A stretch of DNA of 52,894 nt. It comes from an uncultured Pelagibacteraceae bacterium (GTDB lineage: Bacteria; Pseudomonadota; Alphaproteobacteria; Pelagibacterales; AG-422-B15). A model generated the notes under the pieces. It was not told the DNA's origin, did not search any database, and was given only the letters and a program-made list of their open reading frames with translations. Shown here piece by piece: positions 31,388 to 52,894 of the stretch. Location: contig CABYIR010000007.1 of NCBI GenBank assembly GCA_902518955.1, positions 1-52,894 of the forward strand, in the 5' to 3' direction. Position 1 is the stretch's first letter, and each line of letters opens with the position of its first letter. Both the position numbers and the translations under genes were made by a program.

Positions 31388-35155
<3,768 letters not shown>

Positions 35156-35167
35156 TTACTTCTATAA

Positions 35168-35929
35168 CTAAGAACTGCTATTAACAATTTCGTATGATTT
35201 TTTATACCATTCACTATCTGGGAAATTATACCCTAAAGTTGATGCATATTTCTCAGACTCTTTAATTAAGCCGAGAGAATAGTAGATTTCGACAAGTCTA
35301 TGAAGCGCTTCAGCGGTATAAATAGAAGTTTTATATTTATCTAGAACAGTATTGTATCGATTAATTGCAGAAATCCAGTTTTTACTAAATTGATAATATC
35401 TTGCAACTTCCATTTCCTTTGCTGCAAGACGATCATTCAAAATATCAATCTTGCCTTTTGCGTCATTAGCAAAAGAGGTATCTGGATATTTATTTATTAT
35501 ATTCTGAAATGAATTGAGAGCAACTTCAGTCATACTTTGATCCCTCTCTACATCTTCAATTTGATAAAAGTAATTTAGAGATTTTAAATAGTAAGCGTAA
35601 CCTATGTCTTTGCTTGCAGGATGTAAGGATATAAATCGATCGAGACTATTTAAACTCTCATCGTAAAATTGTGACTTATAATAACAATATGCGCTCATTA
35701 ATTGAGATTTTGCAGCCCATTTTGAATAGGGGTACTGCCTTTCAATATCCTCAAAAATGATTGCCGCATCAATAAAGTCTTTTTTTGAGACTAGACTTAT
35801 AGCTTGATCATACAAAATTTTAAGCTCTTCTCCCTCAGTTATTGGGACTTCAAGCTTAGTCGAAGAACAACTAATCATAAAAAGAGATAAAAATAATAAC
35901 GTTACTAATAATCTATATTTATGGAGCAT
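35168..35929 (-). CDS. bamD: Outer-membrane assembly lipoprotein BamD
   Basis: A 253-residue lipoprotein. The signal ends in the lipobox MISC with the lipidated Cys21. About five TPR units follow (LYDQAISLVSKKDFIDAAIIFEDIERQYP is the start of the first). BamD is the essential partner of BamA in beta-barrel insertion. The lpxC-bamD-ligA order matches other alphaproteobacteria, except that recN, often found between bamD and ligA, is missing. Confidence 0.94.
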   Translation of the reverse strand: MLHKYRLLVTLLFLSLFMISCSSTKLEVPITEGEELKILYDQAISLVSKKDFIDAAIIFEDIERQYPYSKWAAKSQLMSAYCYYKSQFYDESLNSLDRFISLHPASKDIGYAYYLKSLNYFYQIEDVERDQSMTEVALNSFQNIINKYPDTSFANDAKGKIDILNDRLAAKEMEVARYYQFSKNWISAINRYNTVLDKYKTSIYTAEALHRLVEIYYSLGLIKESEKYASTLGYNFPDSEWYKKSYEIVNSSS

Positions 35930-35997: not shown

Positions 35998-36924
35998 TTA
36001 GATATAATTGATTACTTCTTTACTATCATAAATCGGATTTTTTGACTCTGAACTTATAGAGTCTTGAATTATTGATAGAGAGCCATCATTCATTAAGAAT
36101 TTTAGCATTTCTTGAGTTCTTCTATGGCCTGCACAATATGCTTCGATAGAACCAATGATACTCATCCCTGAAAGATAAATATCACCAATTATATCTAGTA
36201 CTTTGTGCCTAACAAACTCATTTTCAAACCTGAGATCTTCATCATTTAAAATTCCATCTTTGCTCAAAACAATGGCATTATCAACTGAGCCACCCTTGAT
36301 TAATCCTTGAGCTCTCAGAAATTCAACTTCATCTTCAAAACCAAAAGTTCTTGATGGTGAAATCATCTCTTTGTACCTTACTTCATTTAATTCATCTAAA
36401 AAAAAGTTTTGCTTCTTAATAAGAGAATGGTCATAAACAATAGTATAATCAATACTCAGTTTTTCATTCGGTGAAACTTTTATAAAAGAATTTTCATCTC
36501 CAACCATAAATGGTTTTAAGATTTTTATTGATTTTTTTGAAGCATGTAATTCTTTTACTCCAACACTTTCAATTGTTTCGACAATTTGTTTTGAACTTCC
36601 ATCCAAGATAGGAAGTTCATCAGTGTTCAAATCAATAAGGGCATTGTCAATATTCAATCCGTGAAAAGCTGATAATAAATGCTCTGTCATACTCACCTTA
36701 TGCCCGTACATATTTTCAAGAGATGAGCAAAGCTGAGAATTTATTATATTATTTATGCAGCACTCAATTACTTTTTGGTGATTTGGTACACCAAGATCAA
36801 TTCTTTTAAAATTTATTCCAGTGTTAGCTGGCGCGGGATGAACAGTCATTATTGAAGTCTCTCCAGAATGAAGAGTTATACCAGACAAGGTGAATGATCT
36901 TTTTAAGGTGGTTTGAAGTGACAT
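35998..36924 (-). CDS. lpxC: UDP-3-O-acyl-N-acetylglucosamine deacetylase
   Basis: A 308-residue zinc enzyme for the first committed step of lipid A synthesis. Zinc ligands His82 (MTEHLLSAFHGL), His240 and Asp244 (FVRHKVLDIIGD) are seen, with the catalytic His267 in AGHRRTQEM. The N-terminus TLKRSFTLSGITLHSGE is typical. A 61-base gap with a TATAAT on the minus strand (about 36950) separates it from ftsA, so it may have its own promoter. Confidence 0.96.
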   Translation of the reverse strand: MSLQTTLKRSFTLSGITLHSGETSIMTVHPAPANTGINFKRIDLGVPNHQKVIECCINNIINSQLCSSLENMYGHKVSMTEHLLSAFHGLNIDNALIDLNTDELPILDGSSKQIVETIESVGVKELHASKKSIKILKPFMVGDENSFIKVSPNEKLSIDYTIVYDHSLIKKQNFFLDELNEVRYKEMISPSRTFGFEDEVEFLRAQGLIKGGSVDNAIVLSKDGILNDEDLRFENEFVRHKVLDIIGDIYLSGMSIIGSIEAYCAGHRRTQEMLKFLMNDGSLSIIQDSISSESKNPIYDSKEVINYI

Positions 36925-36985
36925 GGGGTGGTTATATAAGCAAATCGCTAATTATACAGACAATGTTTGTTACCGTATTTTACAA

Positions 36986-38191
36986 CTAAATTGATGCAAA
37001 AAAATTATAAATGTATGAAAAAAAAGACTTTTTTTGACTATCTCGATCATGGTTTTCATCAACTTGTAAATCATGCTCCGAAGCATATGTGAGCAGGCCG
37101 AAAGATGATGATAGAGATGGGTTTGATATGATAGTTTTTAATCCATTAAATTTTTGAGCCACTCCTAGTCTTACTTTTTTTGAACCAAGTTGATTTTTAA
37201 TTTTATTTATAAGTTTTGCTGACTTAGATCCTTTGCCAGTAATGATTATATTTTTATCCACAAGATAAAAATATTTTGAGTCATTTGTAACTTTTTGTAT
37301 TAACTCTACTAGTTCTTCACATCTTGAATTAAATACCTTTAAACTATCAATCTCAAATTGATCATTTAAATTTTCTTCATTACTCGTATTTAATTTTTTT
37401 CTAAGAGTATCTGCGTCAGTTAATTCAATATTCATCACCTGACTTATATCTTTTGATATATGCAAGGTACCAATTGGTATTTTTTGGAAAGCGATCAGAT
37501 TATTATCAAAAATATAACTGATAAATGTGTAGTTTTTACCAATATCAATAACTGCTGATCCATGTGAAGACTCTTCTTCTGATAATGTTGAAATAGAAGA
37601 GGTATAAGCGCTTGCAATAAATTGACGCACCGATACTTGTAAATTCTCAAAAATGCTCCTTAATTTATTTAACTTGTCACTGTCACTCATGATTATGTGC
37701 CACTTTGTCCTCAGGTTATTAACCCTCATTCCAATTGGATCAGAAACAGATTTTAAATTATTAATTCTATGACTAATTGGAAATGAATGTAGAGGTTCTT
37801 TCGCATCACTATATAAAGACTTAAACTCTCTTTGTTTAAAGAATGAATTTATCATTTTATTTGTGATAACTTCATTGCCTAACTCAATCTCCTGATCAAT
37901 GTAAATAGAATCATTATGATCATAAATGCTGATAAAGGCTTCTTTAACTGATACATTTGACTCAATTTCCGCCTTATCAATTGATTGTCTAATATATCTC
38001 TCTAATTCTTCTTCTGGATATTGAAATGGGTCAACGCACTCAATTGGGAAATCTACAATACCATGACCAATTAACTGTAGAAAAGTTCCTTGATTCACAA
38101 TTTCAAGCTCGTGAGCAATTACACAAACAACCCTATCTGGACGTATATCTATTCCTGTAATGATTGTTCGACTCAAATCAAACCTCTTCAA
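36986..38191 (-). CDS. ftsA: Cell-division protein FtsA with degenerate nucleotide site
   Basis: A 401-residue actin-family protein placed after ftsQ. The fold outline is followed: a SHS2-like 1C region (about 85-160), the phosphate-2 position at 215-224, and the adenosine region at 315-324. The binding motifs are altered: phosphate-1 reads GIDIRPDRV (usually G-DIGTSKV), phosphate-2 IDIGKNYTFI (usually DIGGGTTDI), and adenosine ITGKGSKSA (usually LTGGGSQL). The C-terminal helix KKSFFSYIYNFFASI is a credible membrane-targeting sequence. FtsA tethers FtsZ to the membrane. Its start overlaps ftsQ by 14 bases. Identity rests on location, length, IPIGTLHISKDIS and the tail. Confidence 0.88.
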   Translation of the reverse strand: MKRFDLSRTIITGIDIRPDRVVCVIAHELEIVNQGTFLQLIGHGIVDFPIECVDPFQYPEEELERYIRQSIDKAEIESNVSVKEAFISIYDHNDSIYIDQEIELGNEVITNKMINSFFKQREFKSLYSDAKEPLHSFPISHRINNLKSVSDPIGMRVNNLRTKWHIIMSDSDKLNKLRSIFENLQVSVRQFIASAYTSSISTLSEEESSHGSAVIDIGKNYTFISYIFDNNLIAFQKIPIGTLHISKDISQVMNIELTDADTLRKKLNTSNEENLNDQFEIDSLKVFNSRCEELVELIQKVTNDSKYFYLVDKNIIITGKGSKSAKLINKIKNQLGSKKVRLGVAQKFNGLKTIISNPSLSSSFGLLTYASEHDLQVDENHDRDSQKKSFFSYIYNFFASI

Positions 38192-38921
38192 TATTTACTT
38201 TTAATTTATCCCCATCGATTTTGATGATTGCTCTGTCATTAATCCTTAAATCAACCTCAATTATATTACTTTTAAGTATTTTATCTCTTTCAATAAGTTT
38301 TTTAAGATTTTCAAGAGATCTACCAATATTACTTTCAGGTAATTTAACAATTAACTTATTGCTAAAAATTAAATTCCATCTTCTTCGTTCGATAAACTCC
38401 ATTTCTTTTATCGATAATAAAATTTCGGGATAATGAATATTTAAATTTGAGATTAAATTTGGAAGATTAATTTCGCTATCAATACCACTTAAAAGTAACC
38501 GCTGACTTTCTATTATTACATCTTCATTTTCTTCAATAATTAATTCTCCATCAATATCAATTAAATAAACCTTTTGATCTTTTAAAAGGTATGCAAATGG
38601 ATCATTTTCTGTAACAAATATATTTAAAGTATTAGGAAAACTTTTTTTTATATTAACTTTTTTTATCCAGTTTAAATTTTTAATTTCTTCAGCTGCATTT
38701 TTTAAATCAAAAGTCAATAAACTTTTTCCTTTTTCAAATGAAATTTCTTTGATTTTTTGTGTGTTAGAAAAATTTACTCCAGTAACATTAATCGTTTTTA
38801 TATGAGCATAGGAATTTAATGCTGAGGGATTTAAGTAGTAAAAAAACATAAAACCAAATGAAAGAATAACTACTAAACCACAACCAAGATTTAGATATCT
38901 AGCGATTTGTTGACGCATCAT
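38178..38921 (-). CDS. ftsQ: Cell-division protein FtsQ
   Basis: A 247-residue bitopic protein: a short cytoplasmic N-terminus (MMRQQIARYLNLG), one membrane helix (about 12-30), a POTRA domain (IKTINVTGVNFSNTQKIKEI at about 42-61), and the FtsQ-type beta domain. It links FtsA/FtsZ events to FtsL and FtsI at the septum. The start overlaps ddl by 23 bases. Met2 would serve equally well as the start. Confidence 0.92.
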   Translation of the reverse strand: MMRQQIARYLNLGCGLVVILSFGFMFFYYLNPSALNSYAHIKTINVTGVNFSNTQKIKEISFEKGKSLLTFDLKNAAEEIKNLNWIKKVNIKKSFPNTLNIFVTENDPFAYLLKDQKVYLIDIDGELIIEENEDVIIESQRLLLSGIDSEINLPNLISNLNIHYPEILLSIKEMEFIERRRWNLIFSNKLIVKLPESNIGRSLENLKKLIERDKILKSNIIEVDLRINDRAIIKIDGDKLKVNIEEV

Positions 38922-39813
38922 TTAGTATCCAATCTATCAATTCATCAAAGCTAATTCCATGAAATTTTGCAATTTCTGGAACTAAAGACGTTGGTGTCAT
39001 GCCAGGCTGAGTATTTATTTCTAGAATATAAAACTTACTTTTATTTTTATCATATATAAATTCAGTTCGAGATATACCTTTACAACCAATTAAATTGTGA
39101 ACCTTAAGAGCTAGTTTTTCAACTTGTACAATCTCATCTTTCGATAGCCTTGCTGGAATGATATGTTTTGTTTCTCCATCATCAAAATATTTTGACTCAT
39201 AATCATAAAAATCATTTTTGGGATCTATTTCAATAGATCCAGTCTTACTATCACCAATAACAGCAACATTGATCTCAGGTCCATTTATAAATTCTTGAAT
39301 TAAGACTTCCTTTCTATCTCTGTTTCTAGCAGTATAGTCTTCTATATCCTCTACTTTTCTGATGATTGATACACCTACACTTGACCCTTCACTTCTTGGT
39401 TTAATAATAAATGGAAACTTAAAATGAAGGTTATCTTTTAAGTCGTTAAGACTTGATAATATTGTTGAAGGATAAAGGATATCATTTTTAATAAAAATCT
39501 TTGCAGATTCATGTTTATCCATGGCAATTTGAGAAGCTTTAACACCAGAGTGTGTATATGCAGTCTTACTTAGCTCAAGAATCTTTTGAACTTGGCCATC
39601 CTCACCCCATGTTCCGTGCAAAGCGTTGAAAATAACATCAGGCTTACTTTCTTCAATTTTTTTTAAAAGTTCTAAATTAGCATCAACATTAATTATTTCG
39701 TGTCCTAAACGATCCAAAGACTTAGCTACTTCTTTCCCTGATATTAAGCTAATTTCCCTTTCAGCAGAAATGCCACCAGATATCAACATTACTTTTTTAA
39801 AATCTTTATTCAT
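38899..39813 (-). CDS. ddl: D-alanine--D-alanine ligase
   Basis: A 304-residue ATP-grasp enzyme making the D-Ala-D-Ala end of the wall precursor. Visible blocks are GGISAEREISL (13-23), NALHGTWGEDGQVQ, FIIKPRSEGSSVGVSII, and the C-terminal EINTQPGMTPTSLVP with metal-binding residues. It overlaps murB by four bases (ATGA). Confidence 0.96.
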   Translation of the reverse strand: MNKDFKKVMLISGGISAEREISLISGKEVAKSLDRLGHEIINVDANLELLKKIEESKPDVIFNALHGTWGEDGQVQKILELSKTAYTHSGVKASQIAMDKHESAKIFIKNDILYPSTILSSLNDLKDNLHFKFPFIIKPRSEGSSVGVSIIRKVEDIEDYTARNRDRKEVLIQEFINGPEINVAVIGDSKTGSIEIDPKNDFYDYESKYFDDGETKHIIPARLSKDEIVQVEKLALKVHNLIGCKGISRTEFIYDKNKSKFYILEINTQPGMTPTSLVPEIAKFHGISFDELIDWILNDASTNR

Positions 39814-40739
39814 CTTTGGCCTTTAATTTGAATTTCCCATTCTAATTCAACACCGGTTTTTTCTAAAACTTTCTTTCTAATTCGTTCACCAAAATCTTCA
39901 ATAAGATTAGATGATTTTGTTTGTGTATTAATAATGAAATTTGAATGTTTTGCTGACATAGAAACTCCATCAGGACAAACAACTTCATTGAGATAAGGTT
40001 TTATAAGCTCCCATGTTTTTTTATCTGACACTTGAGAACTTGGGTTCTTAAATGTACTTCCACCTGTTCTAACTTTTTGAGGTTGACTATCTAATCTTTT
40101 TGTATTGATGTCTTTCATTTTCTCTTTAATTTGATTTTTATCTCCATAATTTTTTTTTATTTCTACTTCAGTTATAATATGATTTTTTAAGAAATTATTT
40201 TTTCTGTAAGAGAATAACTGTTCAGAATTTTTTATCATTATTTCATTACCCTCAAAATCAATACATTTGAATGAATTGACTACATCTGATATTTCACTTC
40301 CATAGCACCCCGCATTCATTGCAATAGCTCCTCCAATGGTCCCGGGTATCCCATAAAGAAATTCACAATCAGTAAATGATTTTTCATAACAGTATTTTGA
40401 AAATACTTTATCTGGTACCGCCGCACCTGATATAATACTTTTATCATTTTCATTTATAAAATTAAAGTTTTTACTCAGCCTAATAGTTATACCATTTAAT
40501 CCTCCATCTCTAATTAGGATATTGGAACCAAGGCCGATAACATTAATTTTAGTATTACTATTTATTAATTTAAAAACCTTTATCAAATCTTTAGATGACT
40601 GTGGAACAAATAAGACTTCTGCGACCCCACCTACACCAAACCAAGTTTGTTTCGAAATATTTTTATTAAAGAAGATATTTTTATTTAAAAATTCTCTATC
40701 TAATTCATTTTCTAGATGGTTTTGTAATTTAGTTTTCAT
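39810..40739 (-). CDS. murB: UDP-N-acetylenolpyruvoylglucosamine reductase
   Basis: A 309-residue FAD enzyme that reduces the enolpyruvyl group to give UDP-MurNAc. FAD-binding text GLGSNILIRDGGLNG (69-83) and GIPGTIGGAIAMNAGCYG (130-147) is present. The proton-donor Ser228 lies in GGSTFKNP. It overlaps murC by 11 bases. Confidence 0.96.
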   Translation of the reverse strand: MKTKLQNHLENELDREFLNKNIFFNKNISKQTWFGVGGVAEVLFVPQSSKDLIKVFKLINSNTKINVIGLGSNILIRDGGLNGITIRLSKNFNFINENDKSIISGAAVPDKVFSKYCYEKSFTDCEFLYGIPGTIGGAIAMNAGCYGSEISDVVNSFKCIDFEGNEIMIKNSEQLFSYRKNNFLKNHIITEVEIKKNYGDKNQIKEKMKDINTKRLDSQPQKVRTGGSTFKNPSSQVSDKKTWELIKPYLNEVVCPDGVSMSAKHSNFIINTQTKSSNLIEDFGERIRKKVLEKTGVELEWEIQIKGQR

Positions 40740-42120
40740 TTAGATCATCTAATATTTTATATGGCCAATCAGTAATATCTCCAGCACCCAGAAAAATGTA
40801 GATCTCATCTTTTTTACTTTTTTTCATTTCCTCTTTGATATCGTCTAGGCTATTTAGATAGCAACTGACTGTATTTGAGCCCTTACCAATTAATTTAATT
40901 ATTTTATTAAGATTAAAGTTTAAAGGTTTACGTTCATTTGCTGAGTAAACATTTGATATAAACACTTTATCAGAACTAACAAAAGACCTTGAAAATTCTT
41001 TTAATAATGGAATTAGTCTAGAGTACCTATGTGGTTGAAAAACTGCAGTAATTATTGATTTTGGATAAGCATTCTTCAAACCAAGCAGTAAATTTTCGAT
41101 TTCAGTAGGATGATGAGCATAATCATCAATTAATTTTATTGAATTATACTTGCCAACATAAGTTAGCCTTCTATTTACACCTTTAAAATTTCTTAGAGAT
41201 TTCTTTGCTTTAGTTATTGAAAGATCTAGTTCTGTAGAAATAGCAATTGCAGCTAGCGCATTTAAAACATTATATTTCCCAAGCATAGGTATATGAAAAT
41301 TTTTAATACAGTAATTTTTTTTCTTTATATTTATATCAATATCAAAATACGTTTTTTCCTTTTTGTATCTAATATTAAAAGCTCTAATATTACTCTTTTT
41401 GACAGTACCGTAGGTTATAATATTAGTATTTTTTATTGATTTAACTAATAGCTTAATCGAAGGGTCATCTAAACATACAACTGCAAATCCATAAAATGGT
41501 ATATTTGAGATAAACCTCTTAAAGCTTTTTTTAAGTTCATTGTAGTTTCCGTAATATTCTAAATGTTCTTTATCAATATTTGTCACTACTGAAATATATG
41601 GATCCAATTTTAAAAATGTTCCATCAGACTCGTCTGCTTCAACAATTATCCATTCTCCCTTTCCTAACCGAGTATTTGTTCCAAATTCATTGATTATTCC
41701 TCCATTAATAACTGTGGGAGAAAGCCCATAATCAGAGATTAGTGATGCAATAAGAGTTGTAGTTGTTGTTTTTCCATGAGAGCCAGAAATTGCAATTGTT
41801 TTTTTTAATTTGATTAGTTGTGATAAAATAGATGATCGAGATATTGTTGGAATTTTTAACTTTAATGCCTCTTTGATTTCTGGATTTTTATTATCAATTG
41901 CTGAAGAATAAATAATAATATCAGCATTTATAATATTTTTTTTATTATGCCCTATAAAAACTCTTATTCTTTTTTTATTAAGTCGTAAGACATTTTTACT
42001 TTTAGAAATATCACTACCTTGAACTTTATAACCCATACCATGTAGAATCTCAGCAATTCCACTCATTCCAATTCCACCAATACCGATAATGTGAATTTTA
42101 TTTTTTTTATTTATATTCAT
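40729..42120 (-). CDS. murC: UDP-N-acetylmuramate--L-alanine ligase
   Basis: A 463-residue Mur ligase. The N-terminal UDP-binding motif GIGGIGMSGIAEIL is at 13-26, the P-loop GSHGKTTTT at 113-121, and the EADESDGTFL and DDYAHHPTEI motifs follow. It adds the first stem residue, L-Ala. It overlaps murG by 14 bases. Confidence 0.96.
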   Translation of the reverse strand: MNINKKNKIHIIGIGGIGMSGIAEILHGMGYKVQGSDISKSKNVLRLNKKRIRVFIGHNKKNIINADIIIYSSAIDNKNPEIKEALKLKIPTISRSSILSQLIKLKKTIAISGSHGKTTTTTLIASLISDYGLSPTVINGGIINEFGTNTRLGKGEWIIVEADESDGTFLKLDPYISVVTNIDKEHLEYYGNYNELKKSFKRFISNIPFYGFAVVCLDDPSIKLLVKSIKNTNIITYGTVKKSNIRAFNIRYKKEKTYFDIDINIKKKNYCIKNFHIPMLGKYNVLNALAAIAISTELDLSITKAKKSLRNFKGVNRRLTYVGKYNSIKLIDDYAHHPTEIENLLLGLKNAYPKSIITAVFQPHRYSRLIPLLKEFSRSFVSSDKVFISNVYSANERKPLNFNLNKIIKLIGKGSNTVSCYLNSLDDIKEEMKKSKKDEIYIFLGAGDITDWPYKILDDLNEN

Positions 42121-43168
42121 AAAGTTTTGATAATATATGCTCTGAGCTATTGGTAATTTTAATTCTTGATAATTTTGATTTGATATAACCTGAATTTTCT
42201 TCGAAATATAGCAATCTATATGCTTCTAATGATAAATTTATAGAATTTAAATCTTCATTTCTTATAACTTTAGAACATTTAATATCAGATAGTTTTTTTG
42301 CATTAAAATATTGATGATCATCTACAGCATATGGAAACGGTATTAGAATTGATGGTTTTTTTGCATTTATGATCTCATTTGTAGTTGATGAACCAGATCT
42401 AGAAATAATAATATCAGACATATGTATTAGCGTTGTCATATCATCAAAATAATCACTCACTTCACAACTTAATTTATTAGCCGTATAGAAATTTTTTATT
42501 TTTTTAAGATCTTCTAACCTGCCTTGATGACTAACATGTATCTTCTTACTCACTTTATCTTGAAGTTGCACAATTGCTTTTGGAACAATCTCAGAAAGAG
42601 ATTTTGATCCTTGACTACCTCCAATTACACAAATTCTTATCTTATCAATATTTTTACTTATAATTCTTTTATCATTCTTCAGATCACGAACTGGCATGCC
42701 AACATTAATAACCTTTGCTCTAAATTTGTTGTCAATTTTTAATGTTTTTTCAAAAGTAGTAAAAATAATCTTTGCTTTACTGACTAAATTACGGTTTGCT
42801 TTTCCCATGACGGCGTTAGCTTCATGAATTGCAATCTTATAATTTAATATTTTTGCAGCATATAATGGTGCTAAAGTCATATAGCCACCGAATCCAACAA
42901 CAAAATCAGCTTTTGAATTTAGAAATATAAATAATGACCTTATATAAAATAATGGAATATTGAAAATTTGTGAAACTCTATTATTTGCCTTGAATAGATT
43001 TTTTAATATTTTTTTATCCTTTTCTGGAATCGTATCAAAAAAAACTCTTCCTCTTTCATCTGTAATTATCTTGCATTCAATTTTTTTTTTTTTAATAAAT
43101 CTATAAGTCGTTAGCATTGGCAAACAGTGGCCTCCTGTGCCTCCGCCAACTAAATATATTTTTCTCAT
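42107..43168 (-). CDS. murG: Lipid II synthase MurG (GlcNAc transferase)
   Basis: A 353-residue GT28 glycosyltransferase acting on the inner face of the membrane. The first G-loop GGGTGGH (8-14), VVGFGGYMTLAPL, HEANAVMGKANR, and the donor-side GGSQGSKSLSE are intact. It adds GlcNAc from UDP-GlcNAc to lipid I. It starts 15 bases after ftsW. Confidence 0.96.
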   Translation of the reverse strand: MRKIYLVGGGTGGHCLPMLTTYRFIKKKKIECKIITDERGRVFFDTIPEKDKKILKNLFKANNRVSQIFNIPLFYIRSLFIFLNSKADFVVGFGGYMTLAPLYAAKILNYKIAIHEANAVMGKANRNLVSKAKIIFTTFEKTLKIDNKFRAKVINVGMPVRDLKNDKRIISKNIDKIRICVIGGSQGSKSLSEIVPKAIVQLQDKVSKKIHVSHQGRLEDLKKIKNFYTANKLSCEVSDYFDDMTTLIHMSDIIISRSGSSTTNEIINAKKPSILIPFPYAVDDHQYFNAKKLSDIKCSKVIRNEDLNSINLSLEAYRLLYFEENSGYIKSKLSRIKITNSSEHILSKLYEYK

Positions 43169-43183
43169 AGTTTATTATTATTT

Positions 43184-44293
43184 CTAAATGTGTCTTTTTT
43201 TTGAAAGTAACATAATTAGACCAAAAGTAATAGATATACCTATTATTGATGAACCTCCATAGCTTATGAATGGTAATGTCATTCCAGTTGATGGCGTGAG
43301 ACTAATATTAACAGAAATATGTATTAATGCCTGTAATGAAAAATATATGATTAGAGAAAAAAGACTTATCTGAAGAAAATGATTTTTTTCATCGTATAAT
43401 CGAATAAATACTCGATATGCAATAAATAAAAAAATAAATAAAATAAATATACAACCTATTATGCCAAATTCTTCTGCAATAACAGCATATATATAGTCAG
43501 TGTAAGCCTCAGGAAGATCTATCTTTAAAGTTCCATTACCAGGACCTACACCAAATAGCCCTCCACTATTTATTGCTTCTTTTGCTAGTTCTGGCTGATA
43601 ATTATTTATTCCATCAGGCCACAAAAAACTATCAATTCTATTTTTTACGTTAAAATTAAAAAAATATATAAATATTGAAAAGAAAATACCACAAAATAAT
43701 ATTAAGCAAATAATCCAAAAACTAAATCCACTTATAAATATTGAAGAAACAAAAATAGATGTAATTAAAAAAAGTTGACTAATATCTGGTTGAATTACCA
43801 AGATTACTCCTATTGCTATGAATGACAGAATACTTACACCATATTTATATTGATTTGACTGACCAGTTTTAGACTCCAAGAAAAAAGCAAGTGCCAAACA
43901 AAAAAAAGGTTTTATGAATTCAATTGGCATAATTGTAAAATAATTAAGACTTATCCATCTTTTTGATCCATTCCACTCCTGACCAATAAGTAAAGTTGAA
44001 AACAATAACAAAAAAGAAATTATAAATAATGGGAGTATTATTTTCTTTAAATGATTTATTCTTAGCATGGATATTCCAATGCTGATTAAAAGACCGATTA
44101 TTAGATATATGTGCTGTGTCGAGAAAATTGATAGTATGCCTATATTATTTATGTAAATAGATGTTGGATTTATTGTTAAGCTTATCAAAAAGCCCGATAT
44201 CATTAAAATCAATAAAGATATTAAAAGCCATTTATCTATTTGTTTCCACCACTCATTTAAAATACTACTCTCATGAAGAGTATCATTTTTCAT
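43184..44293 (-). CDS. ftsW: Septal peptidoglycan glycosyltransferase FtsW
   Basis: A 369-residue SEDS membrane protein with about ten helices. Conserved texts are GVGPGNGTLKIDLPEAYTD, AVIAEEFGIIG and LPFISYGGSS. It polymerises lipid II at the septum with FtsI. The dcw location between murD and murG separates it from RodA at 9081. Start and the stop of murD share one base. Confidence 0.95.
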   Translation of the reverse strand: MKNDTLHESSILNEWWKQIDKWLLISLLILMISGFLISLTINPTSIYINNIGILSIFSTQHIYLIIGLLISIGISMLRINHLKKIILPLFIISFLLLFSTLLIGQEWNGSKRWISLNYFTIMPIEFIKPFFCLALAFFLESKTGQSNQYKYGVSILSFIAIGVILVIQPDISQLFLITSIFVSSIFISGFSFWIICLILFCGIFFSIFIYFFNFNVKNRIDSFLWPDGINNYQPELAKEAINSGGLFGVGPGNGTLKIDLPEAYTDYIYAVIAEEFGIIGCIFILFIFLFIAYRVFIRLYDEKNHFLQISLFSLIIYFSLQALIHISVNISLTPSTGMTLPFISYGGSSIIGISITFGLIMLLSKKRHI

Positions 44294-45669
44294 TAAACAA
44301 ACTTTCTAGTAATTAATTTTTTAAATATCTTTCCTCTTTCTTCAAAGTTTTTATATTGATCAAATGAAGCGGCGCCAGGACAAAATAAAATAGTTGAGTG
44401 CTTTTTTAAATCTATATCACTATAACACTTTCTAATGACTTCATTTAAATTTGAAGAGGCAAATATCTTATTAGTTTTTGAAAAAAAATTTATAAATGAC
44501 TTTTTATCAATACCTGTTATATAAACTTTCTTAAGTTTATTAACATAAGGTAAAAGCATATTTAAATTTTTGTCTTTAAGGACTCCACCACAAATGAGGT
44601 AAATATTTTTATAATTCTTTATCGCTCTTACCATAGATTCGATATTGGTTGCCTTCGAGTCGTTAATGATCATAGTTTTGTTATTATCAAAAATGAGTTC
44701 TTGACGATGATTTAATCCAATATAACTATTAAGCGCTTTTTTAGTAAATAGATCTTTTAATTTAAGAGAAGATAATACTTGATAAGTAATTTGAACATTT
44801 TCTTCATTATGCTCACCATTCAAGTGTGGGTTACTATGCTTTATCTTCCTTAATTTTGATGTGATTATCAATTTCTTTTTTGATAAGTAAGATTGACTTT
44901 TCATTTTTTCAAAATGAAGAGAAATTGTATTATTTTTTTTATCTTTCAACAGCTTTAATGCTTTTGATTTAATTAAGTCATGGTTACAATTCAATATTGC
45001 TGTATCATCGTTTGTTAAATTTTTAAAAATCTTTGATTTTTGATTAAAGTAATTTCTCATATTTTTATGTCTACTTAAATGATCTGAAGATAAATTGGAA
45101 ATAACTGCAATATTTGGAGCAAAGATTTTTGAAGTTTCTAATTGATATGATGATACTTCTATTATGAGAAATCCATTTCTTATTAGCTTTGAACTAAATA
45201 TCGAATTTCCAATATTACCAATTAGAGAAGTTTTTATTCCATTTGATTTTAATAAATGATTAATTAAAGTTACAATTGTTGATTTTCCATTTGTACCAGT
45301 AACAGCAATTATCTTAATATTATTTTTATTGATTTTATTATTTTTCGATATTGCAACTTGAAATAAATCAAGTTCACTAATAATTCTCTTATTATTTTTT
45401 TTAGCAATATTAATTAGTTTATGTTGTGATTTTCCAATAATACCTATTCCTGGACTTGGCACTACATAGTCAATAGTATTCCATACTTTGCTTATATTAA
45501 AAAATTTTTTGAATTTTGTTTGAGTAATTTTTTTTCTTACTTTTGGGTCATCATCCCAATAGATTATATTTGCTTTACTTTTAGATAATGACCTTGAAAT
45601 TGACAAACCAGTTTTGCCCATACCCAAAATAAGAAATGTTTTATTGGAAAAATAATTTGATGTTATCAT
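44293..45669 (-). CDS. murD: UDP-N-acetylmuramoyl-L-alanine--D-glutamate ligase
   Basis: A 458-residue Mur ligase. The Rossmann-like N-domain starts FLILGMGKTGLSI (12-24), the P-loop GTNGKST is at 125-131, and NLSSDHLSRH and LNHRQELI mark the central and C-domains. It adds D-Glu. It is shorter on GC and richer in Lys than its neighbours, but no key residue seems missing. Confidence 0.95.
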   Translation of the reverse strand: MITSNYFSNKTFLILGMGKTGLSISRSLSKSKANIIYWDDDPKVRKKITQTKFKKFFNISKVWNTIDYVVPSPGIGIIGKSQHKLINIAKKNNKRIISELDLFQVAISKNNKINKNNIKIIAVTGTNGKSTIVTLINHLLKSNGIKTSLIGNIGNSIFSSKLIRNGFLIIEVSSYQLETSKIFAPNIAVISNLSSDHLSRHKNMRNYFNQKSKIFKNLTNDDTAILNCNHDLIKSKALKLLKDKKNNTISLHFEKMKSQSYLSKKKLIITSKLRKIKHSNPHLNGEHNEENVQITYQVLSSLKLKDLFTKKALNSYIGLNHRQELIFDNNKTMIINDSKATNIESMVRAIKNYKNIYLICGGVLKDKNLNMLLPYVNKLKKVYITGIDKKSFINFFSKTNKIFASSNLNEVIRKCYSDIDLKKHSTILFCPGAASFDQYKNFEERGKIFKKLITRKFV

Positions 45670-45677
45670 CCTTTTAT

Positions 45678-46766
45678 TTATCTAATTTTAAGTGTCGCCA
45701 AGCCGATTAGAGCTAAAATAAGAGCTATAATCCAAAATCTAATTACAATTTGAGATTCTGGCCATCCCTTGTGCTCAAAATGATGATGAAGAGGAGCCAT
45801 TCTAAAAATTCTCTTTCCAGTCAATTTGAAAGATCCAACTTGCAATATAACTGATAACGCTTCAGCTACAAAAATACCACCTACAATTGCTAAAACTAAT
45901 TCTTGTTTAATAATTACACTGATTGCACCGAGTGTTCCACCCAATGCAAGTGATCCAGTGTCTCCCATAAAAACCATGGCAGGTGGAGCATTGTACCAAA
46001 GGAAGCCAAGAGAGGCTCCAATCATTGCTCCACAAAGTATAGCTAACTCACCGGCACCAGGAACATAATTTATGTGCAGATAATCAGAAAAAATAATATT
46101 TCCAGCAAGGTAACAAATGATTGCAAAAGTTGCAGCTACAATCATCACTGGAACTATCGCGAGACCATCAAGACCGTCAGTTAAATTTACTGCATTTGCA
46201 GAGCCAACAATAACGATAATTATAAAAGGAATTGAAAAATATCCTAAATTTATAAAAACATCTTTGAGCAATGGAAGAGTCAAGAGATTAAGATCTTCAA
46301 TATTTAGTAACATACTTGTCCAATAAATAAAAATACCTACTGATAAAGCTTGAAGTAAAAGTCTCATCCTTCCAGAAATTCCATTACTAGAATTCTTTGC
46401 AACCTTACTATAGTCATCAATGAAACCTATAAATCCAAAAGATAGAGTTATGAAAAGTATTGGAAGCATTACATCTGTATTAAAATCACTCCACATTAGA
46501 ACAGAAACGGTAATTGATAGTAAAATTATAATTCCACCCATGGTAGGTGTTCCCTTTTTAGCGATTAGGTGAGATTGTGGACCATCCTCTCTAATTGGTT
46601 GTCCATCCTCTTGAAAAGAAGAAATATAATTGATCAATGCTGGTCCAAAAAATAAAATTAAAGTAAACGAAGTAAATAATGCAAGGCCAGCTCTAACTGT
46701 TAAGTAATTTACTAAGTTTAAGAGTGATATATTTATATCAATATAATTTATTAATTCTAATATCAT
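45678..46766 (-). CDS. mraY: Phospho-N-acetylmuramoyl-pentapeptide transferase
   Basis: A 362-residue integral membrane enzyme with about ten helices that makes lipid I from UDP-MurNAc-pentapeptide and undecaprenyl phosphate. Signature loops are TPTMGG (73-78), FIDDYSKVAKNSSNG (115-129) with the Mg-binding Asp pair, NAVNLTDGLDGLA (191-203), FMGDTGSLALGG, and the MAPLHHHFE loop near the C-terminus. Confidence 0.97.
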   Translation of the reverse strand: MILELINYIDINISLLNLVNYLTVRAGLALFTSFTLILFFGPALINYISSFQEDGQPIREDGPQSHLIAKKGTPTMGGIIILLSITVSVLMWSDFNTDVMLPILFITLSFGFIGFIDDYSKVAKNSSNGISGRMRLLLQALSVGIFIYWTSMLLNIEDLNLLTLPLLKDVFINLGYFSIPFIIIVIVGSANAVNLTDGLDGLAIVPVMIVAATFAIICYLAGNIIFSDYLHINYVPGAGELAILCGAMIGASLGFLWYNAPPAMVFMGDTGSLALGGTLGAISVIIKQELVLAIVGGIFVAEALSVILQVGSFKLTGKRIFRMAPLHHHFEHKGWPESQIVIRFWIIALILALIGLATLKIR

Positions 46767-46771
46767 TTAAC

Positions 46772-48142
46772 TTATATTTTTTTGATATGGTTTATAAATT
46801 TACTTAATCCGACAGCATTAGAACCTTTTACATAGATAATAGAGTTATTACATATTTCATAGTTAAATTTATCAATTAGTTCATTTACATCATGAAAAAG
46901 ATTATCTTTTTTATTTAAGCTCAATTCCCTAATTAATTTGAATTGTTTACCAACATAATAACAATGTTTAGAATTAAATGATGTTATAAGTCTAAATAAA
47001 GAATTATGATAATAGTGACTTTTCTTTCCTAGTTCAAACATTTCCCCAATAATATATATTTTACTATTATTATTTTGATTATTAAAAGATTTGAGGGTAG
47101 CAAAATATGATTCGGGGCTTGCATTGTATGAGTGATCAATAACTTTAAAATTTTGATTTCCTTTTTTAATTTTTAATAAATTTCCTCTACCGCTTGTAAG
47201 CTCTAATTTACCATAGTCCTTAATAAAGCTTGTTTTTAAATTCAATGCTTGCAAACTGCTTATAATTGCTAGTGAATTTGAGATTAAATGTTCGTGAGTG
47301 TTGGGTAATGAGTAATTTACTATTTGAGCATTTTGAAGTCTTACACTTAAAAATAATTTATTTTTTTTTCTTATTACTTTTTTTAGTTGAACATTAGAGT
47401 CTTTTGATTTTCCAAAGGAAATTATCGGCTTGAAATAGTTTTTTTTAGACTCTCTTTTCATTAAAGAAAAATATTTATCATCACGATTTAAAATTATCGA
47501 CTTTAATCCACGTGATGAATTCAGAATTTCGGATTTTGCGTATGCAATATCCCGGATTGATTTAAAATTACCCCCATGAACAAAGGCAATATTTAATATA
47601 CATGAAATATCTGGTTGAAGTATTTTAGTTAACTTAGAAAGTTCATTTTTATGATTCATTCCTAATTCAAATATTCCAATATCATCTTTTTTTGACATAT
47701 TTAGTATCTCCAAGGGGAGTCCAATATTATTATTATATGATTTTCTGGAACAAAAAATTTTGTATTTTTTTGCAGTAATTTTGGATAATGCGTCTTTTGT
47801 TCCTGTCTTACCTACACTTCCTGTAATTGCAATTATTGTTCCTTTAAGTTCATTTCTATAATATTTTGCCAACTTTATCATCGCTCTGTGGACATTATGA
47901 ACCTTTACTTGTGGATGCTTAATTTTTCGTTGAATTTTTTCTACAATTGCTAGAGAAGCACCATTTTTAAATGCTTCATTTAAATAATGATGACCATCAG
48001 TATTTTTGCCTTTAAGAGCAAAAAAAATATTACTTTTCTTGACCTGTTTTGAATCTATCGCAGCTCCAGAAAACGACATCTCTTTAATTTTTTTATCTAA
48101 AATCAAATTTATAACCTTTGAATCTAAATAATCATTTTTCAT
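46772..48142 (-). CDS. murF: UDP-N-acetylmuramoyl-tripeptide--D-alanyl-D-alanine ligase
   Basis: A Mur ligase of about 456 residues (460 from the earlier Met). Counted from the earlier Met, the P-loop GSVGKTGTK is at 112-120. NNIGLPLEIL, ELGMNHKNEL and HSYNASPESY follow. It adds D-Ala-D-Ala supplied by Ddl. I chose the ATG at 48142 because it overlaps the murE stop as ATGA; an in-frame ATG four codons upstream (48154) is the alternative and has a slightly better purine stretch before it. Confidence 0.94.
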   Translation of the reverse strand: MKNDYLDSKVINLILDKKIKEMSFSGAAIDSKQVKKSNIFFALKGKNTDGHHYLNEAFKNGASLAIVEKIQRKIKHPQVKVHNVHRAMIKLAKYYRNELKGTIIAITGSVGKTGTKDALSKITAKKYKIFCSRKSYNNNIGLPLEILNMSKKDDIGIFELGMNHKNELSKLTKILQPDISCILNIAFVHGGNFKSIRDIAYAKSEILNSSRGLKSIILNRDDKYFSLMKRESKKNYFKPIISFGKSKDSNVQLKKVIRKKNKLFLSVRLQNAQIVNYSLPNTHEHLISNSLAIISSLQALNLKTSFIKDYGKLELTSGRGNLLKIKKGNQNFKVIDHSYNASPESYFATLKSFNNQNNNSKIYIIGEMFELGKKSHYYHNSLFRLITSFNSKHCYYVGKQFKLIRELSLNKKDNLFHDVNELIDKFNYEICNNSIIYVKGSNAVGLSKFINHIKKI

Positions 48143-49566
48143 GATTGTGCACATATTTCTTTAGCAATCTTTACGTCATCGAACTTATGATAGACATCAT
48201 TAATTATTTGATATTTTTCGTGCCCTTTACCAGCAATAACTAGTAAATCAGAATGCTTAAGTTTTTTTATAGATCTTCTAATTGCAGTTTTTCTATTTGA
48301 AATATTTATAATCGAATTAGCTCTTCCAATGATTTCTTTTCTTATTTTTTTTGGATCTTCGAATCTAGGATTATCATCAGTAACTATTACTGAATCTGCA
48401 TATCTAATTGAAATTGCACCCATTTTTTTTCTTTTCGATCGATCTCTGTTTCCACCGCAACCAAATAAAACATGTAAATTTCCAGATGTCATTTTCCTTG
48501 CCTCGATTAATACTTTTTCTAAGGCATCTGGGGTGTGAGCAAAATCAACAAATACTTTTGCATTATTAGTTTTTTTATGACCAACAAATTGCATTCTTCC
48601 TGGTATTTGTGGCACTCTAGTAATTACTTTACTTATTTTTTCGAATGAAAATCCATATTTTACCAATGAGTAATAAGCTAAAAGTAGGTTTTCAATTTGA
48701 AAAAAAGGAACATTTTTAAATGAAAAAGAATATTTTTTATTTAAATATTCAAGTAATACGATAATATGAGTTTTTGTTAATCTTTTTGTTTTTAGTATAT
48801 TAAAGTTACTTTTTTCTGATTTAAAATAATGAATGTTTTTATTATTTTTTAAACTTTTTTTTATCTTTTTAATTTCGTTAGTATTTTCATTAATTATTGA
48901 TGTACCACTTGTTTTCAAATGTCTTTTAAATAACCGCATTTTACTATTAAGATAATTTTGAAAATTTTTATGAAAATCTAAATGGTCATGAGATATATTT
49001 GTCATAATAGCAAGATCAAAATTAAGTCCACATAGTCTTTTTTGTTCCAGACCATGACTTGAGGCTTCCATTACCACATATTTAATTTTTTTTTCTTTCA
49101 TCTTTTTAAGAGTCCTGGCAATTGATATTGGATCTGGGGTGGTTAGAGTAGATTTTTCTTTTACGTCAATAGAGTTTCCAATAGTTCCAATAATTCCAAC
49201 TTTTTTATTTAATTTTTTAAGTATATGATAAATAAAATAACTTACTGAAGTTTTGCCATTTGTGCCTGTTACTGCAATTAGATTATTTATTTTAGAGTTA
49301 TAAAAATCATAAGCTGTATAAGACAAAGCTTCGCGAACATCATTTACATAAAATACTGGAACTTTCTTTTTTTTAATCTTTTTATTAGACGTTACTATAG
49401 CTGAGGCATGTCTCTTAATTGCATCATCTATGAACTTCGAACCATCTATCAGATATCCAGTAACTGCAAAAAATACATCATCTTTTTTTACTAGTCGAGA
49501 GTCTGAAGAAATACCTGAGATCTTAACTCTTTTGCTAATTTTTAATAATAAAGATGATTTTGCCAT
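48139..49566 (-). CDS. murE: UDP-MurNAc-L-Ala-D-Glu--meso-diaminopimelate ligase
   Basis: A 475-residue Mur ligase. The P-loop GTNGKTS is at 101-107, TTPDPISI and MEASSHGLEQKRL are substrate-binding blocks, and the amino-acid selecting motif is DNPR (398-401), which specifies meso-diaminopimelate rather than lysine. The stop of ftsI and the start of murE share base 49566. Confidence 0.96.
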   Translation of the reverse strand: MAKSSLLLKISKRVKISGISSDSRLVKKDDVFFAVTGYLIDGSKFIDDAIKRHASAIVTSNKKIKKKKVPVFYVNDVREALSYTAYDFYNSKINNLIAVTGTNGKTSVSYFIYHILKKLNKKVGIIGTIGNSIDVKEKSTLTTPDPISIARTLKKMKEKKIKYVVMEASSHGLEQKRLCGLNFDLAIMTNISHDHLDFHKNFQNYLNSKMRLFKRHLKTSGTSIINENTNEIKKIKKSLKNNKNIHYFKSEKSNFNILKTKRLTKTHIIVLLEYLNKKYSFSFKNVPFFQIENLLLAYYSLVKYGFSFEKISKVITRVPQIPGRMQFVGHKKTNNAKVFVDFAHTPDALEKVLIEARKMTSGNLHVLFGCGGNRDRSKRKKMGAISIRYADSVIVTDDNPRFEDPKKIRKEIIGRANSIINISNRKTAIRRSIKKLKHSDLLVIAGKGHEKYQIINDVYHKFDDVKIAKEICAQS

Positions 49567-51344
49567 TAATTAAATGAAGTATTAATAATAATATCACTAT
49601 CATTTAATTTATACTTACTTTTTGTGTCTAAAATAGGACTTATTCTGTCTATCACTTCTCTACTTACTCTAGCTGAGTTCCAGCCTGCATCTGTCCACCC
49701 AAATGTATCATAAGCATGCTCCCTATCATTAATTGGCTTCGGTGAATCGAGCGATATTAGAATAATATATTTTGGTTTATTTATTGGAAAAGCGGCAATA
49801 AAGGTTGCTAGTTTTCCTAAATTTTTATCATAATATCCATTAACATTTCTTCTAGCTGTTCCAGTTTTACCGCCTACAAGGTATCCATGTTCATAATTAT
49901 ATTTATAAGTTTTTTTATAAGTCAATCTTTCGTTATATCCAAAGGCGGTGCTTGCAGTACCTTCAGTAACAACCTTAGAAAATAGATATCTCATTTTCTC
50001 ACTCGTATCATCTGAAAAAATCTTATTCTTAAGCTCATGTTGCTGATTTTTTTTGATCAATGAAGGTTCAATAATATATCCACCGTTTAGCACTGCAGAG
50101 GTTGCTAATGCTAGATGCAGTGGAGTTATAGAAATACCGTACCCATAAGCAATTGAATCAGTATTTACCTCTCTCCAGATTTCAGGATAAATGGGGCTTG
50201 AAAGTTCAGGAATATCTAAATTAACAATATCAAGCAACCCAAGCTTGTATAAATATTTTTTTTGATTTTCTGTACCAATATCTCTGATCATTTTAATTGT
50301 TCCAATATTAGATGAATTACTAAAAATTTCCTCAACTGAACAGAATTTATCTTGACATGGGGGATGAACATCTGAGACTCTATCTTTACCAACTTTTATA
50401 TTTTTACCAATTTCATATTTGGTATTTATATTAAATTTCTTTTCTTCCAAACCTATTGCAGCTGTAAATGTTTTCATTACTGAACCAAATTCATAAAGCC
50501 CTAAGGTATTTCTATTAAATTTCTCACCTGTTGAAATATTAGGATCAAAATCAGGCAATGAAACCATTGATATAATTTCTCCATTATTAATATTCATGAC
50601 CAAACCAGATCCACCTTTAGCATCAAAAATTTTCATTGCGTTTAATATTTCATCTCTCACGATATGCTGTATTCTCAAATCTAAAGAAGAAACCACGTCT
50701 TTATCATTCGGCAGCTTATCAATTGACATCTCAAGGCCTGAGATGCCTTTATTATCTATATCTACTTCTCCAATTACATGGCTAAATAAACTTTTATGTA
50801 GATATTTGCGTTTATAAGAATCTCTTATTTCAACACCAGTTTCTCCTAAATTAATTATCTTTTGCAATTCTTGAGGTGAAGCGTTTCTTTTTAGGTAAAA
50901 AAATTTATTTTTATTGATCTTTTTCTCAATATTTTCGTAAGAAATATCATTATAAATTGACGTAACTTTATTTAAAAACCTCTCTTTATCATGAATTTGT
51001 TCAGGAAATATTTGAATATTCTGCATCTTCAAATTAGCAGTAAGCAAAACATTGTTTCTGTCTAGAATATTTGGCCTTTTTATTAATTCATTATTTGAAA
51101 AATATTTTTCATTTGGATTAAAAAAAAAATTAAGATGCAATATTTGAATTGCTATTGCAAAAAAAAAGGCGCTAAAGATAATTGATGAAAGAATTAATCT
51201 ATTGTTAATTTTTATCTGAAATTTATCTCTTATATTATTTAACTTATCCAGTTTAAACTTTTCTTGATCATATCTGTGTGTAAATGAAAAACTCTTTTGG
51301 TTAAAATCGATTTTCTTTCTTGAGTTTCTTCTTAATTTTCTCAC
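49566..51344 (-). CDS. ftsI: Septal transpeptidase FtsI (PBP3)
   Basis: A 592-residue class B penicillin-binding protein. After a basic cytoplasmic tail there is one membrane helix (about 50-70), the pedestal domain, and the transpeptidase domain with S288-V-M-K291, S344-S-N346 and K493-T-G. It crosslinks septal wall with FtsW. It begins three bases after ftsL. Confidence 0.95.
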   Translation of the reverse strand: MRKLRRNSRKKIDFNQKSFSFTHRYDQEKFKLDKLNNIRDKFQIKINNRLILSSIIFSAFFFAIAIQILHLNFFFNPNEKYFSNNELIKRPNILDRNNVLLTANLKMQNIQIFPEQIHDKERFLNKVTSIYNDISYENIEKKINKNKFFYLKRNASPQELQKIINLGETGVEIRDSYKRKYLHKSLFSHVIGEVDIDNKGISGLEMSIDKLPNDKDVVSSLDLRIQHIVRDEILNAMKIFDAKGGSGLVMNINNGEIISMVSLPDFDPNISTGEKFNRNTLGLYEFGSVMKTFTAAIGLEEKKFNINTKYEIGKNIKVGKDRVSDVHPPCQDKFCSVEEIFSNSSNIGTIKMIRDIGTENQKKYLYKLGLLDIVNLDIPELSSPIYPEIWREVNTDSIAYGYGISITPLHLALATSAVLNGGYIIEPSLIKKNQQHELKNKIFSDDTSEKMRYLFSKVVTEGTASTAFGYNERLTYKKTYKYNYEHGYLVGGKTGTARRNVNGYYDKNLGKLATFIAAFPINKPKYIILISLDSPKPINDREHAYDTFGWTDAGWNSARVSREVIDRISPILDTKSKYKLNDSDIIINTSFN

Positions 51345-51347
51345 TGT

Positions 51348-51701
51348 TCACCTTGAGGAATTTATAATACCTTCTGGTTCTACCACAGTAATTAGATCTT
51401 TATATTGATCAAAATTTTTTTGATTCAATAGATCATCTTCGTCTAAGACTACAAAGTATTTGTTATATTCTTCATTAGAGATTTCTTTTGAGATTTCTTG
51501 AAGATTAATAGGAGATATCAAGTATTCCCATTCTAGTTTATAAAGTTGGTTCTTATTATTTTCATTTCTTAGTTCAACTTCTAAATTATTGATGTATATT
51601 TCTTTTTGAAAGGAAATATTTTTTACTATCAATATTCCTGCTAAACCAGAGATAAAAAATATAATTGAAAATATTTTTATAATTTTTTTCATATTAAACA
51701 A
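51348..51701 (-). CDS. ftsL: FtsL-like cell-division protein
   Basis: A 117-residue bitopic protein with one membrane helix (about 6-26) and a periplasmic heptad-rich segment (ISFQKEIYINNLEVELRNENN) expected to coil with FtsB/FtsQ. FtsL is too variable to recognise by motif; topology, size and its place between rsmH and ftsI carry the call. The YKLEWEYLISPINLQEISKE text fits the family. It overlaps rsmH by eight bases; Met4 is another possible start. Confidence 0.85.
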   Translation of the reverse strand: MFNMKKIIKIFSIIFFISGLAGILIVKNISFQKEIYINNLEVELRNENNKNQLYKLEWEYLISPINLQEISKEISNEEYNKYFVVLDEDDLLNQKNFDQYKDLITVVEPEGIINSSR

Positions 51702-52647
51702 ATCCTAATTCATTAAGACTTACCGCCTTAGAATTATTAAAATTTCTTATTCCATATCTTAATTTTGCAGACCTAGATCTTCTATTATCAGATATTTCTT
51801 GGTCAGAAGGTTTGATTGGCTTATTATTAAAATTAAAGAGTAAATTTTCTTTATTTTCATTTGAAATATAATTTTTTGATCCAGTAATTTTAAAAAAATT
51901 TTTTATAATTCTGTCCTCTATTGAATGAAAAGTAACGAAACATAATTTACCATTCTCTGCTAAAAATTTTGTTGCTGCATTAAGGCCATCAATAAGCTCT
52001 TCAATTTCTTTATTAACAAAAATTCGTATTGCTTGAAAAGTCTTAGTCGCAGGATGACTTTTATAATATTTTTTTGCAAAACAAGATGAGACTATTGTAG
52101 CTAATTCAATTGTCGAAGTGATCCGTTTATTTATTCTTTCACTAACTATTTTTTTAGCAATTTTTCTAGATTTTCTCTCATCACCGTATTGAAAAATTAT
52201 ATCAGCAAGATCAGTTTCGCTATATTCATTAATTATTTCTTCTGCCGTCAAACCATCTTGGCTCATTCTCATATCTAGCTTTCCATCATTTTGAAATGAA
52301 AACCCTCGATCCTGATTATCAATCTGCATAGATGAAACTCCAAGGTCAAAAACAAAGCCATCTATGTTTTTAGTTCCAAGTGACTCTAATAAATTGTCTA
52401 ATTGACTAAATTTATAATTAAAAAATTCAAACCTTTCTTGGTATTCATCTTTAAATTTGTTTGCTTGATTAATTGCTAGTGGATCCCTGTCGATTGCGAT
52501 AACCTTACAATCTAAAGTTTCTAATATCTTTCGTGAGTAACCACCGTTTCCAAATGTAGCATCAATATATGTTTTCATTGGTTTTGGCTCTAGAATATTC
52601 ATCACTTCGTTAAGAAGGACTGGCACATGGCCAGTCTTCTCAATCAT
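51694..52647 (-). CDS. rsmH: 16S rRNA (cytosine1402-N4)-methyltransferase
   Basis: A 317-residue SAM-dependent methyltransferase (MraW). The N-terminus HVPVLLNEVMNIL and SAM motif DATFGNGGYSRKIL (29-42) are clear. GFVFDLGVSSMQID, RGFSFQNDGKLDMRM, FQAIRIFVNKEI and VTFHSIEDRIIKNFF complete the family set. It modifies the ribosomal P site. Its ATG overlaps the stop of the upstream ftsZ as ATGA. No mraZ, the usual upstream neighbour, is adjacent. Confidence 0.96.
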   Translation of the reverse strand: MIEKTGHVPVLLNEVMNILEPKPMKTYIDATFGNGGYSRKILETLDCKVIAIDRDPLAINQANKFKDEYQERFEFFNYKFSQLDNLLESLGTKNIDGFVFDLGVSSMQIDNQDRGFSFQNDGKLDMRMSQDGLTAEEIINEYSETDLADIIFQYGDERKSRKIAKKIVSERINKRITSTIELATIVSSCFAKKYYKSHPATKTFQAIRIFVNKEIEELIDGLNAATKFLAENGKLCFVTFHSIEDRIIKNFFKITGSKNYISNENKENLLFNFNNKPIKPSDQEISDNRRSRSAKLRYGIRNFNNSKAVSLNELGFV

Positions 52648-52894
52648 TTACTTTGTCTTCTAAGGAATGCTGGTATCTCTAAAATTTCTTCATCTAATAT
52701 CTCTTCTGCACTTACTTCTACATCATCATCTTGATCCTGAGTGATTTCAAGTTCATGAATATTATCCTGATCATCTTCAGATTTCTGTTCCTCAGAAAAT
52801 AGACTCGGATTATCTTGATCATGACTTGTGTCATCATCAATTAAATCAAAGATGCTTTGTTCTTGAGATAGTTTTTCTTCCTCTGCTTCTTTGG
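52644..52894 (-). CDS. ftsZ: Cell-division GTPase FtsZ, C-terminal end only (cut by window edge)
   Basis: The reverse strand is open from the right edge to a TGA at 52644-52646 that overlaps the rsmH ATG. The last residues, EEILEIPAFLRRQSK, are the FtsZ C-terminal conserved peptide that binds FtsA and other tethers (compare LDIPAFLRKQ in E. coli). Before it lies a disordered, strongly acidic linker rich in Asp, Glu and Gln (for example SEDDQDNIHELEITQDQDDD). The GTPase domain is outside the window. The position, directly upstream of rsmH, is not the usual one between ftsA and lpxC. Confidence 0.86.
   Translation of the reverse strand, partial: KEAEEEKLSQEQSIFDLIDDDTSHDQDNPSLFSEEQKSEDDQDNIHELEITQDQDDDVEVSAEEILDEEILEIPAFLRRQSK

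Follow-up and report, generated by a model that had tools for sequence, protein, structure and literature searches.

The canonical alphaproteobacterial dcw cluster has the order mraZ-rsmH-ftsL-ftsI-...-ftsQ-ftsA-ftsZ-lpxC, with an amidase gene and the RNase P RNA gene before mraZ and lpxC-bamD-ligA behind. In Caulobacter the genes ftsZ, ftsA, ftsQ and ftsW are regulated by CtrA, for which there is no ortholog in Pelagibacter (PMC2877005). A minimal dcw cluster is found in Mycoplasma (mraZ-mraW-MG_223-ftsZ), where ftsZ is near mraZ in one operon, and in Mycoplasma genitalium ftsZ is repressed by MraZ (PMC8475190).

The cluster described here lies in a stretch of 52,894 nucleotides (the window) from an uncultured member of the SAR11 bacteria (Pelagibacterales). 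It has the same genes as the canonical cluster, in the same orientation and otherwise the same order, and the same genes flank it on both sides, but ftsZ is situated between mraZ and rsmH rather than between ftsA and lpxC. It resembles the Mycoplasma cluster in having ftsZ near mraZ within one operon, although the Mycoplasma ftsZ is last, after mraW, there are no peptidoglycan genes, and the box sequence is different. MraZ repression of ftsZ has been shown experimentally in Mycoplasma.

The dcw cluster of the window and its divided ftsZ gene

All of the dcw genes in the window are on the reverse strand. The rsmH (mraW) gene (51694..52647; PF01795, MraW methylase, E=4.3e-99) is followed by ftsL (51348..51692), which is assigned by position and size without a Pfam match and is conserved in the family by tblastn, by ftsI (PBP3; 49566..51344), and by murE-murF-mraY-murD-ftsW-murG-murC-murB-ddl-ftsQ (38178..49566) in the canonical order, as in relatives. 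The ftsA gene (36986..38191) is full length (401 aa; PF14450 E=2.6e-10 plus SHS2_FTSA), matches PDB FtsA by sequence, and its AF2 model covers whole solved FtsA folds with a TM score of about 0.8. It has no ftsZ behind it and, as the earlier note had stated, runs to lpxC (35998..36924; PF03331 E=1.7e-93) across 61 bases (36925..36985) with nothing between; we take this spacer as the ancestral site of ftsZ on the basis of the ftsA-ftsZ-lpxC order in other Alphaproteobacteria. The spacers in the loci compared range from 22 to 70 nt, likewise without ftsZ. The usual downstream genes bamD and ligA (33122..35929) complete the region, as in relatives. The set from mraZ to ftsA is collinear throughout, contiguous in relatives and divided between two contigs in the window's genome.

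At the right edge of the window, a frame open to the edge (52644..52892, reverse strand) constitutes the 3' end of ftsZ, with 82 codons plus the stop encoding a stretch of acidic linker plus the conserved tail EILEIPAFLRRQSK at the C terminus. Read directly, the frame terminates in SAEEILDEEILEIPAFLRRQSK, and its TGA overlaps the rsmH ATG by four bases as ATGA. A tubulin/FtsZ profile search of the genome's contigs gave one match (G000:C34:568-1050, E=1.7e-50), and the remaining 365 aa of FtsZ are encoded at G000:C34:1-1095(-), directly behind mraZ, in a frame that the start of C34 cuts within the linker. Both Pfam FtsZ domains (PF00091 E=2e-49 and PF12327 E=2e-35) are on the C34 part, with the window contributing linker and tail. 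The edge frame is thus confirmed as the C-terminal 82 residues of the one FtsZ detected in this genome, and the expectation that the full gene would encode a tubulin-like GTPase is borne out by the C34 part. mraZ, for which the earlier note proposed a genome search, has not been lost: it remains at the head of the cluster, with ftsZ between it and rsmH.

The adjacency of C34 and the window's contig (C7), unassembled in this genome, is deduced from relatives. In the congener G004 the FtsZ linker opens with tandem repeats of 45-bp units, and C34 ends exactly at the start of that repeat, which is absent from all of the other contigs of the window's genome that were searched; in a second congener (G008) the contig begins in the same FtsZ tail ahead of rsmH. 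The tail peptide LEIPAFLRRQ, which serves FtsA and other partners, is present in the window, its family and the sister family.

Distribution of the mraZ-ftsZ-rsmH order

The order mraZ-ftsZ-rsmH, with an overlap of -4 nt, is present in all 19 members of the window's family that have an unbroken ftsZ, bearing out the first of the earlier note's two alternatives, a shift of ftsZ from the tail of the cluster to its head. One member (L058, AG-904-D18) was deposited as 'uncultured Pelagibacteraceae' and has the same gene order. In the sister family (Pelagibacteraceae, in which L084 and L086 carry the names Pelagibacteraceae and Fonsibacter) every locus read is mraZ-ftsZ-rsmH with gaps of 12-27 nt, and ftsA-lpxC is without ftsZ. 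The order therefore characterises SAR11 in both of its sampled families. In a class-wide sample of 117 loci, ftsZ is behind ftsA (or ftsQ before lpxC) in 97 and after rsmH or ftsL in three; mraZ-ftsZ-rsmH was found in one, belonging to the second order described below, and 16 were unresolved.

The earlier note had allowed that relatives might share the arrangement as one already described. It is common to relatives, and no description was found in the open papers searched: none dealt with ftsZ and the dcw cluster in SAR11, and nothing on gene order came up for Pelagibacter ftsZ/ftsA. This order-wide rearrangement of ftsZ in a very conserved cluster is probably undescribed in the open literature, and the separation of ftsZ from ftsA across a whole order is a natural experiment on why gene order is kept.

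A second order, made up of small AT-rich genomes (handle G075; 32 genomes in 12 genera of one family), has the same arrangement in 20 of 21 informative loci, and where its cluster is complete it is collinear with the SAR11 cluster. In the exception (L280) a truncated ftsZ is followed by rsmH in inverted orientation; the contig may be chimeric. The assemblies are mostly 1.0-1.4 Mb with one of 2.0 Mb, the locus GC is 26-32%, and 16S is 80-84% identical to that of SAR11. For HIMB59/AEGEAN-169, genome sizes of 1.26-1.84 Mb and GC of 27-32.5% (PMC10308909) and linkage of 16S, 23S and 5S in one operon (PMC3815206) have been reported. An intact 16S-23S-5S operon is also present in the second order (L342, L343), but it is non-discriminating as the window's family has one too (L344:3827-6772). 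These features are compatible with HIMB59/AEGEAN-169, and with no named record matched we give this as a probable name for the second order. In two Pelagibacteraceae genomes read (L346, L347), there is no 5S within the stretch fetched behind the 23S.

Whether the two orders share the arrangement by common descent we regard as a matter of about even odds. In a tree of six dcw proteins, SAR11 and the second order group together even under four-state recoding (94% bootstrap), and an AU test rejects two alternatives in the style of published trees, which place either group with Rhodospirillales or Caulobacteridae (p<0.001); these results come from few genes, and an AT bias common to both groups, of the type known to mislead such trees (PMC6447387), can produce such a grouping. 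The exact slot between mraZ and rsmH is used by SAR11 and the second order only, which also argues against separate gains. Gain by each order independently is nonetheless a strong alternative, to which we give slightly less than an even chance. Published site-heterogeneous phylogenies place HIMB59 apart from SAR11 (PMC3815206, PMC6447387), the second-order FtsZ is only about 50% identical to that of SAR11, and ftsZ has moved independently within family f71. Whole-genome synteny scores showed no special similarity for HIMB59 (PMC3815206); the position of ftsZ is a rare gene-order character bearing on its contested placement.

Further moves are seen in other small alphaproteobacterial genomes (L059 SAT1449, G246 of family f71, G237 and G178), in which ftsZ has also gone from tail to head, although these mraZ-rsmH-(ftsL)-ftsZ-(ftsL)-ftsI clusters differ from SAR11 in using the slot after rsmH or ftsL. 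In f71, nine loci (genera g168, g185, g186 and g189) have rsmH-ftsL-ftsZ-ftsI, and other genera, AT-rich or GC-rich, retain ftsA-ftsZ (-lpxC). Because the genera of this family differ in arrangement, head-ward moves of ftsZ recur, and because the move is confined to some of them it is independent of that in SAR11. The presence of both arrangements in one family (L313-L321 versus L322-L338) offers a natural experiment on the effect of the move. The GC-rich f71 genome G136 has two copies of ftsZ, and beside one of these no dcw gene was recognised (loci with two FtsZ matches are L333 and L338). The Rhodospirillaceae MAG SAT1449 (L059:4095-9380) has mraZ-rsmH-ftsL-ftsZ-ftsI at 48% GC.

Full-length and half-size FtsA

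In part of the sister-family genus g6 (Pelagibacter), ftsQ and lpxC enclose an ORF of only 222-235 aa (one is called at 174 aa); examples are L256:1557-2258(-), L258:17833-18534(+), L262:1231-1938(-), L309:681-1349(-) and L312:16299-17003(+). Other g6 genomes have an FtsA of about 390 aa. By alignment, the short form retains the first half of FtsA as well as the terminal amphipathic helix, and has lost the PF14450 half; it gave no Pfam match, and the FtsA ATPase domain (2A/2B, PF14450) was not found in it. In 12 of the 20 g6 genomes the only PF14450 match is MreB-sized, and the match of that size in the window is MreB. The short form was also modelled (mean pLDDT 79.5), and the 19 structures that match the model best are all solved FtsA, with about 188 of 380 residues covered. 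The FtsZ tail is unchanged in the genomes with a short FtsA. In the FtsA:FtsZ-tail complex 4a2a the tail contacts the half that the short form is missing, and this FtsA thus lacks the portion to which ATP and the FtsZ tail bind. No description of a half-size FtsA was found in open papers.

A connection between the half-size FtsA and the relocation of ftsZ is only a suggestion. In its fullest form, one ancestral move would unite SAR11 and the HIMB59-like order, after which Pelagibacter would have lost the ATP/FtsZ-tail half of FtsA, with another partner holding FtsZ at the membrane. We consider this tentative and on balance doubtful; if true, some very abundant ocean bacteria anchor FtsZ via another partner.

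Control of ftsZ at the head of the cluster

Upstream of mraZ, the amidase gene and the RNase P RNA gene are followed by CCCA repeats at 10-bp steps, the form that MraZ boxes have in E. coli. The window's genome has four copies in a CCCA-N6 array of 10-bp direct repeats. At least two MraZ-type boxes are present upstream of mraZ in 24/24, 18/18 and 14/18 loci, compared with about 0.0004 in shuffles; four of 18 second-order loci are without a clear double box. Many loci have a -10-like hexamer within the box array, often with a -35-like hexamer 15-18 bp ahead. In a plain scan, promoter-like hexamers do not exceed chance frequency. The mraZ-ftsZ gap is 25 nt in the window's family, leaving little room for a separate ftsZ promoter, and the simplest reading is transcription from the MraZ-controlled promoter.

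Our overall reading is that a single move brought ftsZ into the mraZ-rsmH gap and so into an MraZ-autoregulated operon, to which we give a probability of about 0.75 on the basis of gene order, single copy, overlaps, boxes and conservation, with the C34-C7 join deduced. Under this reading ftsZ would have left the ftsA-lpxC gap a single time, no later than the origin of the order, with no second copy remaining and the rest of the cluster unaltered. It would stand second in an operon with a putative promoter that follows the RNase P RNA gene and overlaps the MraZ-box array, and FtsZ synthesis would most likely be set by MraZ autoregulation at the cluster head. The move may have become possible once CtrA no longer controlled ftsZ. 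The invariant overlap suggests that RsmH translation is coupled to that of ftsZ, ribosomes perhaps reading out of ftsZ through the ATGA, and with ftsA now 14 kb downstream, its co-translation with ftsZ would be lost and the FtsZ:FtsA balance changed. A changed ratio and RsmH coupling are both reasonable to infer from the arrangement. Relocation has probably altered the control of division, and the proposed change, from CtrA-type to MraZ-type, is testable.

A more conservative alternative is that the order is real yet functionally neutral, a chance move in small streamlining genomes with expression and partners unaffected (for example, through internal promoters). Relocation to three head positions (after mraZ, rsmH or ftsL) in small genomes indicates that no single slot is required, and the partner-binding FtsZ tail is conserved everywhere. 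However, in every move seen ftsZ has stayed within the dcw cluster and gone to its promoter-proximal end, and the rsmH overlap of -4 in 19/19 family loci, together with a gap of 18 nt in 10/10 Pelagibacter g6 loci, suggests constraint. We therefore think neutrality unlikely, and prefer a move that brought ftsZ under MraZ control.

The earlier note had also raised the possibility of a second FtsZ copy. A specialised FtsZ before rsmH with an ordinary one elsewhere, to which the 79% completeness of the window's genome lends some room, is very improbable and is contradicted by the complete single-contig relatives, each with exactly one FtsZ match, as by the single match in the window's genome and in nearly all related genomes, and the protein has a normal GTPase domain and tail. 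A false join of the FtsZ tail to rsmH is scarcely credible, for although the window ends within a repeat-rich gene where many relatives break too, the arrangement is present on unbroken contigs from the same order, some as long as a whole chromosome (single-contig G041, G042, G045 and G047), ruling out assembly error at the order level.

In-frame tandem repeats in the FtsZ linker (G000:C34 start; L024:1-216; L265:3076-3436; L042:2688-3017) vary in unit by genus, with units of 27, 48 and 117 bp in other genera, and it is because of these repeats that the window's assembly and many related ones break inside ftsZ. Elsewhere, an FtsZ fragment (G123:C26:15634-16002) is inside a frame reported as 22364 aa long with no stop, where the sequence is presumably masked or faulty.
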